Part shown: piece after piece, positions 27,555 through 42,267 of the stretch
Layout: every line of letters begins with the position of its first letter
Numbering within the stretch: position 1 is the first letter of the stretch
Origin: a virus
Length of the DNA: 46,874 nt
IMG/VR virus record: IMGVR_UViG_3300005825_000081
Location: 1-46,874 of that record
Reading direction: 5' to 3' (one strand)
The notes under the pieces: generated by a model
Databases searched by the model: none
The model's input: the letters and a program-made list of their open reading frames with translations, nothing else
What the model was told of the DNA's origin: nothing
Translations under genes and position numbers: made by a program

Positions 27555-27905
27555 TTAATAAGAATTTCTGGCGCTGTCTGCTCCGCCAACGTTTTTAGCT
27601 TCCTGCGCTCCGCAGTCTGGGTTCGCGTATTCTCGCGGGATTTCTACATCGTCTTCTGACGACATATCGTTCGTAGAAACGACGTTCCAATTAAGACTGG
27701 CATCGTACCGAGTTTCCAGAATTTTCTGTATAAAATGTAGCGCTTTTTCCAAATCCTGAATTCCGTTTTTATCCCAGTGCCTATCTATGTATGCGATACA
27801 TCGCGCCTCCAAATACGGCATATCCGCACAATAGTCCCAGTGTTGTATTTCCTTCTTCTTCTTGTAATGCGTACCGCCTATTTGGGTGTCGTTTGCTCTC
27901 GCCAC
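27555..27905 (-). CDS. DUF3310 protein, nucleotide-metabolism neighbour (GTG start)
   Basis: 116 aa from GTG with AAGGAG eight bases upstream; overlaps the HD gene by 28 bases. Family pattern IGGTHYK, IQHWDYCADM, CIAYIDRHWDKNGIQDLEKALHFIQKIL is that of DUF3310, a short phage protein family repeatedly found with nucleotide kinases and pool enzymes. Residues 75-116 are a divergent acidic tail. Its exact role is unknown; the operon (TS homologue, nucleotidase) supports a deoxynucleotide-pool function. Confidence 0.82.
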   Translation of the reverse strand: MARANDTQIGGTHYKKKKEIQHWDYCADMPYLEARCIAYIDRHWDKNGIQDLEKALHFIQKILETRYDASLNWNVVSTNDMSSEDDVEIPREYANPDCGAQEAKNVGGADSARNSY

Positions 27906-28417
27906 GAGATTAGCTCCTTGGTAAAGAAATTTAAGATGTCCGCCATTCCGGCAGTAGTTCCTTGGTCGTTACATATTCTGTCTAGATCACCTATTATGTT
28001 CTCCATTACAGGGTCCATAAACCCGTTCCCCATAGTGTGTTCGCGTATAGCGTAAAACCCCATTTCTGTTAAATCTGCGAATTTAAGCCACCCCATTTCC
28101 TCCTTTATCAAATTATAAGTTGCGTTCAGCCTTTCGTGTATATCAATCTCAGCTTCCGAAATGGCTTTTTGTAAATCCGGGTACATCCGTTTAGCTGTAT
28201 AGGGTATATCTCCGGTCCAATACTCCGCAACATCATGGTCTAAAGCCGCCAGCATGAGATTTTTGGATAGCGCGACTTCTGGAACGACGCATCTTAACCA
28301 CTGCATAACGCCGTAGGTGTGGTCGGCTACCGTTTGCGGGTGCAAGGTAGGATGTGCGTGCCACCTGTCTATGCGACCTGCGTTCCATTTTATTTCTGTT
28401 ACCGAGAATTTATCCAT
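27878..28417 (-). CDS. YfbR-like HD-domain 5'-deoxyribonucleotidase
   Basis: 179 aa. HD hydrolase family: RIDRWH at residues 15-20, VADHT with metal-ligand His33, LDHDVAEYWTGDIP with His61-Asp62, Glu65 and Asp70, and a Lys in the following YTAKR. This is the YfbR arrangement, which removes phosphate from deoxynucleoside 5'-monophosphates. Overlaps the TS-homologue stop by eight bases. In a phage that replaces thymidine, such an enzyme could deplete competing dTMP or dCMP; this is inference. Confidence 0.82.
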   Translation of the reverse strand: MDKFSVTEIKWNAGRIDRWHAHPTLHPQTVADHTYGVMQWLRCVVPEVALSKNLMLAALDHDVAEYWTGDIPYTAKRMYPDLQKAISEAEIDIHERLNATYNLIKEEMGWLKFADLTEMGFYAIREHTMGNGFMDPVMENIIGDLDRICNDQGTTAGMADILNFFTKELISWREQTTPK

Positions 28418-29399
28418 TATTAGGCTCCTCGCTAACCCACTGAGCCGCTAAATGTCTCACGGCTTGGTCTTCAATACTGGCGATATACCTCTGGTAGTTT
28501 TCAGGCGTAGCCTTGAGGTATTTTCTAGATATCCAGTAGTTGAACAGAGGCTTTGCTACGGTCTCCAAAAAAGGCTCCTTGAAATTGAAAGTCAGTATTC
28601 GATTCCTTTCGGTAGCTGCCATAAACACGCCTAGTTCTTTATCAAACGTACTTATGTCCAACACTAGAGGTACTAACTTAGCATTTCTACCGTCGTACCA
28701 ACCTGAACTAACCGGGATTTTTCTCAACTCGTCAAGCCGAGGGGTATTTGTATACATATGCAAATTATTGGAAAACTGCACATACCTTCCTACCAAATAC
28801 CCCGCTTTTGCAGCGACATATTCTTGTATCATAGAAAAGTGGGCTGCGTTAGCCCCGCACATCCCCCAAATTAAATCGTTGCTTCGGTTACACACGGTCA
28901 TATCTAAATAGCTATCCCACACTACACGAAACATTATAAGGTCGTTACAAGGTATGTCTTTACTGCTAGAGCATAAATCCCGCTCCCAATTCCATATTTG
29001 CGCTACAGCGCGGCGGCTGGTTGGGTCTTTTTTCAGTATAGCGGCGCACTCGGTCAACTGATCTATTCGACCAGAACGGAGTCGGTGCCCGTAGGCACCG
29101 TGAAAAGAGTATCCGTTATCGCTATACGCTCGCATCTGCTCGTTAAATCGGGCCAGCCAATTTACGTCTTCCCGACCTGATAGCATCCACAAACCCTCCA
29201 TAACCAGAAACGCTACATTGTTTCTTCGTATAGGGTGCATAACAAAACGCTGTCTAGGCAAGCAGTAGGTCACGCATACCGGGTAATGGGCGGCGATAAC
29301 CGGCCCATTTCGGCTATTTTCTACCTTACCCTCAGTATCAAGATAGTCTATGAGAATTGGCAGAGCTTCGTCAACATTTTGCGCGGTAACGGTTTTCAT
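28410..29399 (-). CDS. Thymidylate synthase homologue, possible dUMP hydroxymethylase
   Basis: 329 aa. TS-fold landmarks: EGLWMLSG (Glu68, Trp71), FHGAYGHRLR at 99-108 (canonical YGxxxR), the catalytic cysteine in DIPCND (Cys151), the phosphate/base segment NRSNDLIWGMCGANAAHFS (Arg172, Asp175, Asn184) and LHMYTN (His214, Tyr216). All catalytic residues are kept; Asn184 favours dUMP over dCMP. The usual PPCH becomes PCND and LGxPFN becomes WGMCGAN, a divergence typical of phage hydroxymethylases and relatives. The neighbours (GT, deacetylase, aGPT-like enzyme) favour 5-hydroxymethyl-dUMP synthesis over plain dTMP synthesis. Confidence 0.85.
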   Translation of the reverse strand: MKTVTAQNVDEALPILIDYLDTEGKVENSRNGPVIAAHYPVCVTYCLPRQRFVMHPIRRNNVAFLVMEGLWMLSGREDVNWLARFNEQMRAYSDNGYSFHGAYGHRLRSGRIDQLTECAAILKKDPTSRRAVAQIWNWERDLCSSSKDIPCNDLIMFRVVWDSYLDMTVCNRSNDLIWGMCGANAAHFSMIQEYVAAKAGYLVGRYVQFSNNLHMYTNTPRLDELRKIPVSSGWYDGRNAKLVPLVLDISTFDKELGVFMAATERNRILTFNFKEPFLETVAKPLFNYWISRKYLKATPENYQRYIASIEDQAVRHLAAQWVSEEPNNG

Positions 29400-29875
29400 T
29401 TTTCAGTTTTAACCTCAAGCAGTCCTAATTGATAGGCTTTTGATATGTAAGTAGCAGCGGTTTCATACGGCGCTTTGGACGCAGCTATCATAGGGTACAC
29501 CTCGATCATTTTCTCCGCTATCTCCTTTCGTGTAGCCCCGTGGTCGCCGGTAGACAACACATGGCCTACCACGCACGCTACATATTCTGCCGTTTGATGC
29601 CCCATACCTTTTTTCAGCTGTTGCCAATTTTTATACTGGCTAGATACGATAAAGATACACCCTGGGGGAGCTTTTTGTCGGAGCGATTTAGTCCTTTTGA
29701 AAGACTTTTTATGCGCTCCAGAAATTTCAGATAGCTCGGGCTTGCTAAACGTTACTATCCTGCCGGCAGAGTCTTCTACCGCCTCTACATACATATAGTA
29801 GTGGCATTCTACCTCGACGCCTGCCGCCATTAAAGTTTCTGCCGTGTCTTGGTCGATCTTTACTTTAGTTTTCAT
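29396..29875 (-). CDS. Unknown, winged-helix-like C-terminus, in modification cluster
   Basis: 159 aa from ATG 29875, chosen for AAAGGAAAC upstream; the frame continues open to 29971. Residues 1-90 are a mixed alpha/beta region with a basic centre (SGAHKKSFKRTKSLRQKAPP). The C-terminal 60 residues (HGATRKEIAEKMIEVYPMIAASKAPYETAATYISKAYQLGLLEVK) look like a winged-helix fold. Overlaps the TS homologue by four bases. A DNA-binding adaptor that guides modification, or a regulator, is possible; no family recognised. Confidence 0.7.
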   Translation of the reverse strand: MKTKVKIDQDTAETLMAAGVEVECHYYMYVEAVEDSAGRIVTFSKPELSEISGAHKKSFKRTKSLRQKAPPGCIFIVSSQYKNWQQLKKGMGHQTAEYVACVVGHVLSTGDHGATRKEIAEKMIEVYPMIAASKAPYETAATYISKAYQLGLLEVKTEK

Positions 29876-29897: not shown

Positions 29898-30749
29898 TTA
29901 AGTGTTTCCGTTATACCTCTGCTTTGGTTTTCCCGTACCCTGCAACGTGCGCATGTACTTAGAAAATTCACACATTACGTTCGAGCAGTTGTTCGGGTCT
30001 AAAAACACCGGAGGTACTCCAGGGTGCTTTGACAATAGGTCTTGCAACTCCATCAGCTCTCCGTGTGTATCTTTTATGGTCGTTCCTTGCGGGCGACCGT
30101 ATAAATAGTTGAGACCTTTTATTGTGCCAGGGCCTGCTTCGACCCAAGTTGTCCAGTCTTGAAACTCGTGTCCGGGGCGGTGGTAAGGCGAGTAGCGTAT
30201 ATCAGCTACCATCTGGTTTCGCATAAACGGCCCCATGCCGTAAAACTTTCCGATAAATTCAGCCCAAGTTTCTAGCTTCAGAGTAGTTAACGGAGCACTA
30301 CCGAGTTCATCCCACATTGGAGTAAATACATCTCGTATAAGGTAGGTATGCTTTGGGATTCCTTGCGACCGAGCGTGAATCATATACGCGCCGTTGAATA
30401 GCTTCTTTCCTCTGTCTTGTCTTGCGTCGAGCAGTAGGTTGAGATTGTCGGGGCTGAAGTCGTCTATATACCCGATTTCTCCCAGGCACTCCGGGAGATT
30501 GAAAACGCGGGCAACGGCGATGTTAAACCATAACGTTAGCGGGGTTATTTTAGGATGTACAAAGTAGTACCTTTGAATCCATTTCGTAACCGGGTCGTCT
30601 TGCCTATCCACGTTACAAAAGCGGTAATTTTGAATAATGAAATCGTTACACCAGGGTTTTGGTTGACGTCGCTCGTAACCGATTCTGGCCCGTTCGCGTT
30701 GGCTGATATAGTATAAAAGCGTTTGATAAGCGTTTTCGTCGATCACCAT
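29898..30749 (-). CDS. aGPT-pyrophosphorylase / HMUDK-helical-like thymine hypermodification enzyme
   Basis: 283 aa. The N-terminus (SQRERARIGYERR, KPWCNDFIIQNYRFCNVDRQDDPVTKWI, residues 16-58) and later FIGKFYGMGPFMRNQMVADIRYSP plus EAGPGTIKGLNYLYGRP are the hallmarks of alpha-glutamyl/putrescinyl thymine pyrophosphorylases and the related helical domain of 5-hmdU DNA kinases. These act on phosphorylated 5-hydroxymethyluracil in phage DNA, replacing pyrophosphate by a nucleophile. No P-loop is present, so it is the helical enzyme alone. Overlaps the deacetylase stop by seven bases. Confidence 0.82.
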   Translation of the reverse strand: MVIDENAYQTLLYYISQRERARIGYERRQPKPWCNDFIIQNYRFCNVDRQDDPVTKWIQRYYFVHPKITPLTLWFNIAVARVFNLPECLGEIGYIDDFSPDNLNLLLDARQDRGKKLFNGAYMIHARSQGIPKHTYLIRDVFTPMWDELGSAPLTTLKLETWAEFIGKFYGMGPFMRNQMVADIRYSPYHRPGHEFQDWTTWVEAGPGTIKGLNYLYGRPQGTTIKDTHGELMELQDLLSKHPGVPPVFLDPNNCSNVMCEFSKYMRTLQGTGKPKQRYNGNT

Positions 30750-31309
30750 AGTATTATCTCTGTTGTATGTGGAAGAATGTCTTTGTTATAGAAAAAGAAC
30801 AGACTTTGTGTTTTGAAAATATCTACGGTCTTTTTGTCGTATTTTCGACCTCCTGGTTTATACATAGAAATGACTTTTTTCCCAAACGATTTTTCCTGCA
30901 ACTCGTCTTGATTTTTAAGCTGCATCGCATAAGGCTGATCGACGTAGTAAAACAAAGGTGGGTTGTCATAAATCTCGGACTCCCCCCGTAGGTAGTCGCA
31001 GGCCTCTGTAACCGCGTAATGCTCGGCATGGCGCAACCCTAAAGGGCAGATTATAGCCCAATCTTTTTTCGCAGGGATTGAGGCTATTATAGCGGGAGTA
31101 CCGTCCATACTGCCGCATTCTTCGTACCCCATCCAGCTATGAGAAGCTCCTACGCTATGCGCGTATGCTTCAGCTTCGGCAGCACGTTTCGGGGTTCCGT
31201 ATACGGTGACTATTTCAACTTCGTCCCCCCACTTTATCCACCGTTTTATATGCCCTCCTAAAGATAAAAAGGCATCATCGGCGTGAGGTTCTATCACCAT
31301 GTATTTCAT
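30743..31309 (-). CDS. LmbE/PIG-L-type zinc deacetylase
   Basis: 188 aa. Zinc-binding EPHADDAFLSLGG near the N-terminus (His9, Asp11, Asp12) and CPLGLRHAEHYAVTEA (His94, His97) are the two signatures of the GlcNAc-PI / LmbE de-N-acetylase family, which removes acetyl groups from N-acetylated amino sugars. Length is near the family minimum. First gene of a transcription unit with promoter cassette 5 and a TATGGAG ribosome site. Together with the glycosyltransferase it suggests a deacetylated amino sugar on DNA or on a cell-surface glycan; the nearby modification genes favour DNA. Confidence 0.87.
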   Translation of the reverse strand: MKYMVIEPHADDAFLSLGGHIKRWIKWGDEVEIVTVYGTPKRAAEAEAYAHSVGASHSWMGYEECGSMDGTPAIIASIPAKKDWAIICPLGLRHAEHYAVTEACDYLRGESEIYDNPPLFYYVDQPYAMQLKNQDELQEKSFGKKVISMYKPGGRKYDKKTVDIFKTQSLFFFYNKDILPHTTEIILW

Positions 31310-31339
31310 TAATCGGTCTCCATATTTATTAGGCGCAAG

Positions 31340-31396
31340 TCGAGTGCTCCCGATCTACTCCTATTATACTACGGCAGTATAGCCAGGTAAAGCGTT
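31340..31396 (-). promoter_or_regulatory. Promoter-operator cassette 5
   Basis: Minus strand: -35 TTTACC (31386-31391), 17-base spacer containing ATACTGCCGTAG, -10 TATAAT (31363-31368). TATACT and AGTATA form a 17-base dyad overlapping the -10, an operator-like arrangement. It drives the deacetylase-to-DUF3310 unit. A small TCG..CGA hairpin is possible in the leader. Confidence 0.75.
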
Positions 31397-32539
31397 TTAA
31401 AATCCCATTATTTTATCATAAACGGTAGAAGCAAGGAAGTTTTCACTCACATAGGCTTTCGCTAATTTCTGCCTTGCTCCGTCTGTGGCGAAATTCGTCG
31501 TTATCAGGCAGTCGTTTATCTCCTGGGCTATATTCTCTGCGCGCACTTTTAGGCATAACTCTGTCGGGATAATAGAGTTTTCGGCCACTATCGGAAGGCA
31601 TCCGTACCATAATGCCTCTATTCCGGTAGTATTGATTGACCCTTTGTTGTATACTTCGTAACGTGCTCGACCCATTCCCTGAAAGTCTGCCATAGCCCAT
31701 GAGCGACTTAAGATGTCCGGGATATTCTCTAACGCTGTGTACCCGTGAAACGTCGCGTTCCCACGTCCGGAGAACTTGCTGTCGAACATGTCTTTTCCTA
31801 CGACGCTTTGCCATAAAGGAGTGTTCCTCATTTGATAGTATTCTATCCCGTTGGAGTACATATCAACGGTTATCCGGTTATTGATATCCGGGAGGGCTTT
31901 TACAAACTGTTTTATCCCCTTTATGTTTTTCCACTGAGACAGCCACACCAGCAAAGGATGCTCTGTACGAGAAACATGCGAAGGCTCAGGGTAGAACGGG
32001 ATGTGCACCCCTTCTATGCCGTACCGCTCGACAGTTTCTCTATAGGAGTAGGCAATAGTGACGTGGTTTAGCGTAGGCGTCATTTCCAACCCGAGTTCCA
32101 ACCACGCTCGATATGAGTCTGCGTACCCGTCGCATATACGACCTATCATGGGTATCTCTATCATACGCAAAAAGTCGTAAAAGAAAGGTTCCGATCCATA
32201 CGCTTTATTCGGGTGCGGCACCATACCACTAAGGTACAGATAGTCGAAATTAAGGTTTATGTAGTCTGCTACTACTTTTGCATGTCGCGGGTGGTGAGAC
32301 AGTTTTCCGTCAACTGTAAGGTATACGTCGCCCCCTCTAATGAGTTGCCGCTCTCCATAGATTTCGTAGTCTTTTTGGACCCAGGGCCACGTTTCAAAAA
32401 CTTTCCATACGTGCCCTCGATCAGCGCCTTCGTTGTACATTGCGATCAGTTCTGAGTTAAGTCCTGCTACTCCTGTCGTTTTCCATTGTAGTGCGCATAC
32501 CCGTAGTGGGGGGTTTTCTTTTTTATTTAAGAATTTCAT
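31397..32539 (-). CDS. Glycosyltransferase, GT-B type (GT4-like)
   Basis: 380 aa. Two-domain architecture: an N-terminal Rossmann-like half opening VCALQWKTTGVAGLNSELIAMYNEG, and a C-terminal half with LVWLSQWKNIKGIKQFVKALPDI, a phosphate-loop region (FHGYTALENIPDILSRSWAMADFQGMGRARYEVYNKGSINTTGIEALWYGCLPIV) whose E-A-L-x-x-G-x-x-P-I-V ending is the classic nucleotide-sugar E-x7-E site of GT4-like enzymes. Starts inside the helicase gene (17-base overlap), so it is co-expressed with replication. Likely transfers a sugar to modified DNA bases; a surface-glycan role cannot be excluded. Confidence 0.82.
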   Translation of the reverse strand: MKFLNKKENPPLRVCALQWKTTGVAGLNSELIAMYNEGADRGHVWKVFETWPWVQKDYEIYGERQLIRGGDVYLTVDGKLSHHPRHAKVVADYINLNFDYLYLSGMVPHPNKAYGSEPFFYDFLRMIEIPMIGRICDGYADSYRAWLELGLEMTPTLNHVTIAYSYRETVERYGIEGVHIPFYPEPSHVSRTEHPLLVWLSQWKNIKGIKQFVKALPDINNRITVDMYSNGIEYYQMRNTPLWQSVVGKDMFDSKFSGRGNATFHGYTALENIPDILSRSWAMADFQGMGRARYEVYNKGSINTTGIEALWYGCLPIVAENSIIPTELCLKVRAENIAQEINDCLITTNFATDGARQKLAKAYVSENFLASTVYDKIMGF

Positions 32540-41141: not shown

Positions 41142-41437
41142 CAGTCAATTTCCACAGCGATTGTTTCATAACTGTAGAGCTTAGACCCTGCTTTGCGATA
41201 CGCCTCTAGAATCCACTTAAAACCCTTGTAGTTCCAAGCTTCTTCAAATTGCGCATCGGTAGCGTTGTCTATTAGCCACTGTAAGTCTCCTTTGTTCCCT
41301 TTGTCGCCGTAGCGACCTCCCAGCAACGACATGAGTTTACAAGTAGCCAGACCTCCAAGATAGACCGTGTTCATAGCACCAGGCCCGCTTCGATAGCGGA
41401 CTGCCCTTTTCATCTCTTTCCGTCTTTGGTCTTTCAT
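41141..41437 (-). CDS. Small protein, unknown, coupled to ardC
   Basis: 98 aa, ATGA overlap with the ArdC stop. Basic N-terminus (KDQRRKEMKRAVRYRSG), a Gly-rich centre with MSLLGGRYGDKGNKGDLQWLIDNATDAQF and a helical end. Could interact with DNA. No recognised domain. Confidence 0.7.
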   Translation of the reverse strand: MKDQRRKEMKRAVRYRSGPGAMNTVYLGGLATCKLMSLLGGRYGDKGNKGDLQWLIDNATDAQFEEAWNYKGFKWILEAYRKAGSKLYSYETIAVEID

Positions 41438-42267
41438 GCAGCCTCCTCAACAGCGTTTTCTTCAGGAAGCAGCAGATTAAGCGCTTTCTGCGCCATTGCT
41501 GCAGCCTTAAAGATGTATTTATGGTCGTTCTCCAACCGGCCTATCCAGTGTGCGATATACTCCGCGTGTTGAAGCCCCTCGTAGGGAAGCCCCAAAGCTG
41601 CTCCGGCCATCGCTGCTCCAAGCTCCGCCACCAATTCCTCTTCTGCGTAGCTGTGATTCTTTATCCGGCCCAGTCGAGCCGCGCCCCCTGTCCAGTGGAT
41701 AAGCTCGTGAAGAAGTGTGGCCTCGTGGTTAGTGAAGTCCTTGAACGCCTCTACCGAGGGCATATGAATCTGATCTACCGAGGGGATATAGCAGGCGCTA
41801 TTGCCGCCGTATTTTACTTCAGCTCCTACGCTTTCTGCTATGCCGATAACGCCGTTTTCAGGAGATACGGGAGGAGTGTAATGTTTCAGCTTTTTTACGT
41901 CCAAATCTTCACACTGGTCGATGTTAAAAACGCAGTAAGTACGCATCAAGGGGATTTTTTCTTTTGCCCCCTGGGCGTTCTCTTTTTCCAGTATTTTGTA
42001 GAAGATAATGTAGGTTCCCTTTTCTCCTTTGGTAACGCTACCGCCAAGCGCTTTCGCTTGATTGTAGGTAACCCAACCGGGAGTAGGGTATTGCCCGCCT
42101 AGCATAGCGAGCAGGAATACGTTGATGCCGGAGTAGGCTCTGCCCGTTACCGCGTTGTGCGGCATATTACCGGCTAGGTCTTTCCAAGGCTTAGACCATT
42201 TGCCCGCGTCTTTGAGACCGTCGATAATAGACAGCGTTATTTGGTCGTAGAGGTCTTCATTTTTCAT
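41434..42267 (-). CDS. ardC: ArdC-type antirestriction protein
   Basis: 277 aa. N-terminal ssDNA-binding region typical of the family (AGKWSKPWKDLAGNMPHNAVTGRAYSGINVFLL, about 22-55, then PTPGWVTYNQAKALGG) and C-terminal metalloprotease-like domain with HELIH at 187-191 and a glutamate-rich AEEELVAELGAAM helix supplying the third ligand. ArdC proteins protect incoming DNA and inhibit restriction. First gene after promoter cassette 3, so expressed early. Complements the predicted base modification. Confidence 0.9.
   Translation of the reverse strand: MKNEDLYDQITLSIIDGLKDAGKWSKPWKDLAGNMPHNAVTGRAYSGINVFLLAMLGGQYPTPGWVTYNQAKALGGSVTKGEKGTYIIFYKILEKENAQGAKEKIPLMRTYCVFNIDQCEDLDVKKLKHYTPPVSPENGVIGIAESVGAEVKYGGNSACYIPSVDQIHMPSVEAFKDFTNHEATLLHELIHWTGGAARLGRIKNHSYAEEELVAELGAAMAGAALGLPYEGLQHAEYIAHWIGRLENDHKYIFKAAAMAQKALNLLLPEENAVEEAA

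Follow-up and report, generated by a model that had tools for sequence, protein, structure and literature searches.

A predicted glycosyltransferase and LmbE/PIG-L deacetylase pair in phage thymidine hypermodification cassettes may place an amino sugar on DNA

The window analyzed here is the whole of IMG/VR virus record IMGVR_UViG_3300005825_000081, 46,874 bases in length, and our subject is a pair of neighboring minus-strand genes that encode a GT-B-fold glycosyltransferase (GT) and a predicted N-deacetylase of the LmbE/PIG-L family (PIG-L). Early genes occupy the minus strand from a single-stranded DNA-binding protein (SSB) at 37.1 kb to a DUF3310 protein at 27.6 kb, in the order SSB, DNA polymerase A, a small gene, VRR-NUC, SNF2 helicase, GT, PIG-L, HMUDK_hel, a 159-amino-acid protein, a thymidylate synthase (TS)-family protein, an HD nucleotidase, and DUF3310 (Table 1). 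The GT gene shares 17 nucleotides (nt) with the helicase gene and is separated from PIG-L by 87 nt, and PIG-L and HMUDK_hel overlap by 7 nt at the stop of the former and the start of the latter. An initial annotation had set the two genes side by side, and both open reading frames are present on the minus strand in an order that is kept in relatives; its division of the pair into two units depended solely on a TTTACC-17-TATAAT sequence in the gap, and that putative promoter constitutes no evidence because such sites are equally frequent in shuffled sequence. We suggest that the GT is very probably directed at DNA and, with less assurance, that the TS-family protein, the GT, and PIG-L probably form a pathway in which N-acetylhexosamine (HexNAc) is transferred to 5-hydroxymethyluracil (5-hmU) DNA and then deacetylated. 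This proposal, whose donor, acceptor, and product are deduced from genomes, builds on direct observations of gene order and its recurrence, of the absence of the kinase and transferase families of the known route, of mutual exclusion between that route and GTs, of protein folds, and of retained zinc ligands.

The core of the cassette is familiar. The TS-family, HMUDK_hel, HD, and DUF3310 proteins are homologous to gp58, gp55, gp59, and gp61 of phage M6, with identities of 38.7, 32, 35, and 33%, respectively. The TS-family protein is 38 to 39% identical to the deoxyuridylate hydroxymethyltransferases of M6, YuA, and MP1412, and its catalytic Cys151 and its Asn184, the latter of which we take from TS biochemistry to be the residue specifying deoxyuridine monophosphate (dUMP), are invariant; by homology, it would qualify as an M6-type dUMP hydroxymethyltransferase. 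The DNA of Pseudomonas phage M6 contains 5-(2-aminoethyl)deoxyuridine (PMC6449724). Searches of the window with tblastn found none of the M6 5-hmU DNA kinase (gp54, PF18748), the amino-acid:DNA transferase (ADDT; gp51, PF18724), the pyridoxal phosphate (PLP) enzyme, or the radical S-adenosylmethionine (SAM) enzyme, and the PF18748 and PF18724 profiles matched nothing in the whole window record or in the other eight records with a window-type PIG-L, with M6 and two other records scoring positive. The window therefore encodes the first step of the pathway and not the known second step, and the M6 kinase route was considered for it and dropped because the genes are absent.

A wider survey indicates what may take the place of that step. 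When IMG/VR was scanned with HMUDK_hel and TS profiles and the top-ranked matches were sampled, about 155 contigs with HMUDK_hel were obtained. Neighboring genes were classed with hidden Markov models derived from proteins of M6 and the window and from the GTs at loci L004, L005, and L008. Of the 136 contigs that have HMUDK_hel together with TS, 59 carry a GT (45 TAGT, nine L005-type GT4, and five window-type GT-B), 48 carry the kinase and/or ADDT, 29 carry neither, and none carries both, against about 21 expected (Fisher P = 8.7e-17); the exclusion persists (P = 6.8e-9) once HMUDK_hel is clustered at 60% identity. The L004 and L008 proteins were confirmed by Pfam and PHROG as members of TAGT, the family to which a DNA glycosyltransferase of a T-even phage belongs (PMC13390438). 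Since GT and kinase/ADDT share no contig in this set, the most economical interpretation is that the kinase branch of M6-type hypermodification is replaced by a glycosyltransferase that works on 5-hmU DNA. Some contigs with neither enzyme have further GT-like or unassigned genes adjoining HMUDK_hel. Unassigned proteins of about 310 to 350 amino acids lie beside HMUDK_hel, with no kinase or recognized GT, in L018, L055, L059, L061, L071, L073, L098, L110, L132, L138, and L143; their N termini look alike by eye, and they are candidate second-step enzymes. Radical SAM-like genes (in L030 with PF04055 and SPASM) adjoin divergent GT-like genes in the kinase-less HMUDK_hel cassettes of L030, L031, L048, and L160.

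The pair itself recurs. Window GT or PIG-L used alone retrieved no relatives from GenBank phages, IMG/VR, or GTDB genomes; relatives surfaced only through the HMUDK_hel and TS profiles, and the records with the pair are all metagenomic or fragmentary, the GTs of L013 and L153 stopping at contig ends. The order GT, PIG-L, HMUDK_hel, TS is found in the window and in L013, L153, L174, and L175 (relatives 36 to 49% identical), and in two larger phages (L177 and L178, records G009 and G010) GT is followed by PIG-L, and HMUDK_hel lies in another part of the record. In L177 an additional GT4 gene comes after PIG-L. In every paired record except the window the two genes abut or overlap. HMUDK_hel is present in all nine records with a window-type PIG-L and matched in none of 14 control genomes. 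Each of the nine also has a glycosyltransferase: seven have the GT-B gene directly upstream of PIG-L, record G008 (locus L170) has a same-family GT (115 bits) between HMUDK_hel and TS with PIG-L about 10 kb away, and in record G016 (locus L163) the partner of PIG-L is a TAGT. Conservation of both proteins in the same gene order shows that these are more than chance open reading frames, and since pairwise identities between records for GT and PIG-L (about 36 to 61%, the near pair L177/L178 aside) match those for HMUDK_hel and TS (29 to 56%), the pair is constrained in the same way as the other cassette genes. L176 and L181, weak PIG-L matches at 21 to 29 bits, were regarded as ordinary LmbE proteins and excluded; the L176 record lacks HMUDK_hel. 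The modification context proposed in the initial annotation is supported by the recurrence of the pair inside 5-hmU cassettes and by the mutual exclusion of GT and kinase branch.

Searched alone, the window GT had no match to Pfam, PHROG, or PDB sequences, and its family profile drew only chance matches from PDB sequences; its assignment as a glycosyltransferase is based on its seven-member IMG/VR family, on the GT-B fold of its predicted structure, and on a remote relationship, seen at profile level, to L005, a Pfam-recognized GT4 protein. The AlphaFold2 (AF2) model (predicted local distance difference test score [pLDDT], 79.9; predicted template modeling score [pTM], 0.81) has two Rossmann-like domains and matches solved GT-B enzymes at Z 20 to 23 over residues 9 to 380. 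Leading PDB folds, tied at Z 22 to 23, are PimA, T4 AGT (including complexes with hydroxymethyluracil DNA), and BshA with uridine diphosphate (UDP)/N-acetylglucosamine (GlcNAc), and among the nearest viral models are DNA alpha-GTs and two glycosyltransferases of SP-15. The earlier description of the enzyme as GT4-like holds for the fold and fails for the EX7E motif, in which Glu308 is invariant and the first Glu is replaced across the family by an invariant Gly300; because the motif is incomplete, we call the enzyme GT-B rather than GT4. No Pfam GT4 or GT1 profile exceeded its cutoff on the window GT, two family members matched PF13439 (best E = 1e-4), and a Pfam scan of the window GT did not find the TAGT domain PF20691. 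Many of the tied folds belong to lipopolysaccharide (LPS) or lipid enzymes, and a role in altering the glycans of the host surface (LPS or teichoic acid) or the proteins of the virion, in the manner of seroconverting phages, would accommodate them; phages DLP3 and DLP5 carry PIG-L, WcaG, WecE, and a BshA-like GT, and LPS modification has been proposed by the authors for the GT of DLP3 (PMC7326821). The window pair, in contrast, lies between helicase and TS in an early replication operon, GTs and the 5-hmU kinase exclude each other, and no membrane or capsule genes are nearby, which makes a surface role very unlikely. DLP3 was not used as support, since Bhz59 and Sonora are the only Stenotrophomonas phages that match HMUDK_hel. 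Addition of the sugar to 5-hydroxymethyl-dUMP or the corresponding triphosphate, with polymerization of the finished nucleotide, would parallel the dihydroxypentyluracil of SP-15, which is built before DNA synthesis (PMC5977210); DNA is the substrate, however, both of the T4 GTs and of the 5-hmU kinase branch, and with DNA-bound AGT among the closest folds we regard this order of events as extremely improbable.

PIG-L retains the zinc-site motifs EPHADDA and RHAEH intact, with H9, D11, D12, and H97 invariant in a nine-member alignment. PF02585 matches the window protein below cutoff (E = 1e-4; 23.3 bits versus 28.2), and relatives exceed it (L153, 29.4; L163, 30.9). The AF2 model (pLDDT, 85.7) has the LmbE fold; its best matches are Dbv21 (Z 20.6) and Orf2 (Z 20.2), deacetylases of the GlcNAc-bearing glycopeptide pseudoaglycones of A40926 and teicoplanin, respectively, followed by diacetylchitobiose deacetylase, BshB, and MshB, and the PIG-L profile also finds Orf2 (E = 3e-7) and Dbv21 (E = 2.5e-6) by sequence. 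The presence of BshB and MshB here, and of BshA and MshA among the top GT folds, would also suit a pair that makes a small glucosaminide like bacillithiol or mycothiol, unrelated to DNA, yet no gene of a thiol pathway, such as BshC or MshC, was seen among the window genes scanned, and the linkage of every window-type PIG-L record to HMUDK_hel and the TAGT partner in L163 render this role highly improbable.

Three independent hints point to an N-acetyl sugar: the LmbE partner itself, an epimerase in L163, and an adenosine 5'-phosphosulfate (APS) kinase with a sulfotransferase-like gene in L153. The epimerase (L163:4329-5270) lies between PIG-L and HMUDK_hel in the TAGT cassette and is nearest to WbgU (1.5e-73) and WbpP (1e-69), which we take to act on UDP-GlcNAc and UDP-N-acetylgalactosamine. 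L163:5176-6198, read by eye as a UDP-sugar dehydrogenase, was dropped, since that reading was backed by neither Pfam nor PDB. Between HMUDK_hel and TS in the GT and PIG-L cassette of L153 lie the APS kinase (L153:2031-2414; PF01583, 2.7e-12) and a weak Sulfotransfer_3 match (L153:2402-3022; 4e-5, below cutoff) that has no PDB sequence match; the DNA sugar of this phage is possibly sulfated, and an exposed amine or hydroxyl would fit as the substrate. Heparan synthesis proceeds by N-deacetylation and then N-sulfation, and the L153 gene set is reminiscent of it. An FkbM methyltransferase gene (PF05050; L192:7264-8118, record G008) between GT and TS suggests an O-methylated sugar. No sulfotransferase was found in the window, and no sugar-nucleotide gene was seen there among the families scanned; UDP-GlcNAc from the host would be enough to supply the donor. 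A modular "aminoglycan" branch, in which 5-hmU bears a de-N-acetylated HexNAc that in some phages is further N- or O-sulfated (L153), O-methylated (G008), or derived from epimerized UDP-HexNAc (L163), so that heparan-like reactions take place on DNA, is an extension that we consider rather unlikely.

In the pathway that we favor, the TS-family enzyme would generate 5-hydroxymethyl-dUMP, which would replace T in the phage DNA. The GT-B enzyme would then transfer HexNAc, with UDP-GlcNAc, universal among hosts, as the simplest donor, onto the 5-hydroxymethyl oxygen of 5-hmU DNA, the position in the route held by the 5-hmU DNA kinase and the amino-acid:DNA transferase in M6-type phages. Finally, the LmbE/PIG-L zinc enzyme would N-deacetylate the sugar on the DNA and expose a primary amine, as in 5-(glucosaminyloxymethyl)uracil, with HMUDK_hel a presumed shared helper. 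The amine would be charged at neutral pH, as in the modified bases of M6, ViI, and phiW-14, and resistance to host nucleases is a likely benefit. The earlier suggestion of an amino sugar on DNA accordingly finds support in the recurrence and exclusion described above, in a GT fold that ties DNA-bound AGT with a GlcNAc transferase, in an LmbE protein that matches deacetylases of aglycone-borne GlcNAc, and in the UDP-HexNAc-type epimerase of a sister cassette.

Several observations weigh against this pathway. Searches of isolate phages with the GT and PIG-L of the window and of L175 were empty, and no isolate in the phage collection carries the pair. Exclusion between GT and kinase is not significant when HMUDK_hel is clustered at 45%, because few clusters remain, and shared ancestry is partly behind it. 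In L177 and L178, which have HMUDK_hel as well as the pair, no PF00303 or ThyX gene was found, and their PIG-L proteins have a replacement at H94, one of the two putative zinc-region histidines. The first Glu of EX7E is missing from the GT family, and the GT-B fold gives neither donor nor acceptor, as PimA, HepE, and many lipid or small-molecule GTs lie within about 1 Z unit of T4 AGT. Nor does the LmbE fold imply deacetylase function: it is shared by GalB, a hydratase (Z 16.0, rank 17). This last point, together with the distance of PIG-L from the GT/TS cassette in G008 and its pairing in L163 with a GT of another fold, because of which PIG-L need not recognize one GT product, would favor a scheme in which the GT acts on 5-hmU DNA and the LmbE protein works earlier on a donor precursor, removes another acyl group, or is a GalB-like hydratase. 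We judge that scheme unlikely, since the best fold and profile matches of PIG-L deacetylate GlcNAc already attached to an aglycone and PIG-L is adjacent to GT, mostly abutting or overlapping it, in seven of the nine records.

If the amino sugar pathway is correct, phage DNA hypermodification gains a glycosylation-then-deacetylation route whose chemical outcome, a cationic amine on T, is shared with the kinase/amino-acid route; this would explain the kinase-less state of many 5-hmU cassettes and provide candidate enzymes for putting a reactive amine sugar on DNA. The literature searched yielded no report of a DNA-directed sugar deacetylase.

Table 1. Features of the minus-strand modification cassette and the basis for each assignment
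Feature	Position	Strand	Basis
GT-B-fold glycosyltransferase, 380 amino acids; proposed DNA 5-hmU HexNAc transferase	31397..32539	-	Seven-member family, predicted structure
LmbE/PIG-L family N-deacetylase (predicted), 188 amino acids	30743..31309	-	PF02585, motifs, predicted structure
HMUDK_hel helical protein (aGPT-Pplase1-like, M6 gp55-like), core of thymidine hypermodification cassette	29898..30749	-	PF18723, E = 3.3e-35
159-amino-acid protein between HMUDK_hel and TS	29396..29875	-	Start read from sequence
TS-family protein, proposed dUMP hydroxymethyltransferase	28410..29399	-	phrog_5131, E = 3e-86
HD/YfbR-like 5'-nucleotidase, M6 gp59-like nucleotide-pool enzyme	27878..28417	-	PF12917, E = 2e-8
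DUF3310-like protein, M6 gp61-like	27555..27905	-	PF11753, E = 0.006
Promoter-like TTTACC-17-TATAAT (weak), in GT/PIG-L gap	31363..31391	-	Count no higher than in shuffles

Family searches with the 159-amino-acid protein gave no match. Elsewhere in the window, at 41434-42267, lies a gene for an ArdC-like antirestriction protein with a zincin-like metallopeptidase domain (PF08401, PF18818).

Sugar-bearing thymine analogues are known from the DNA of other phages. The dihydroxypentyluracil of Bacillus phage SP-15 bears glucose and phosphoglucuronate (PMC5977210), and two SP-15 GTs are among the top viral folds for the window enzyme; the thymidine of Yersinia phage YerA41 bears a sugar-like group of about 1 kDa whose fragments match neither hexosamine nor N-acetylhexosamine (PMC9023294). 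These systems differ from the one proposed here in the base (SP-15) or in an oligosaccharide that does not fit hexosamine masses (YerA41), and no deacetylase pair has been described for either. T4 AGT shares with the window enzyme the GT-B fold, over about 335 residues, and a presumed 5-hydroxymethyl-pyrimidine acceptor, but identity is about 10%, and the window GT has a deacetylase partner and a thymine rather than cytosine precursor; the TAGT DNA glycosyltransferases are a different GT family. Phage glycosyltransferases described by Pyle and coworkers in 2024 (Cell Rep 43:114631) reportedly install N-acetylhexosamine, among other sugars, on 5-hydroxymethylcytosine, the precursor being made by a methyltransferase and TET, and that system is not known to include an LmbE step. 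The logic of GlcNAc transfer by a GT-B enzyme followed by de-N-acetylation by an LmbE enzyme is that of BshA/BshB and MshA/MshB, whose folds match both window proteins, but these enzymes serve thiol biosynthesis rather than a phage DNA modification operon and are only 10 to 22% identical. Orf2 (teicoplanin) and Dbv21 (A40926), N-acyl-glucosaminyl pseudoaglycone deacetylases, are the closest structural counterparts of PIG-L and share its PHxDDAxLS motif, differing in their natural-product substrate and in sequence (about 22% identity). The system also stands close to the thymidine hypermodification of M6, ViI, and phiW-14, with which it has homologous TS, HMUDK_hel, HD, and DUF3310 proteins in common and probably also a primary amine on a thymine analogue; where those phages employ the PF18748 kinase, the PF18724 ADDT, and PLP and radical SAM enzymes, the window carries a glycosyltransferase and a predicted deacetylase instead.

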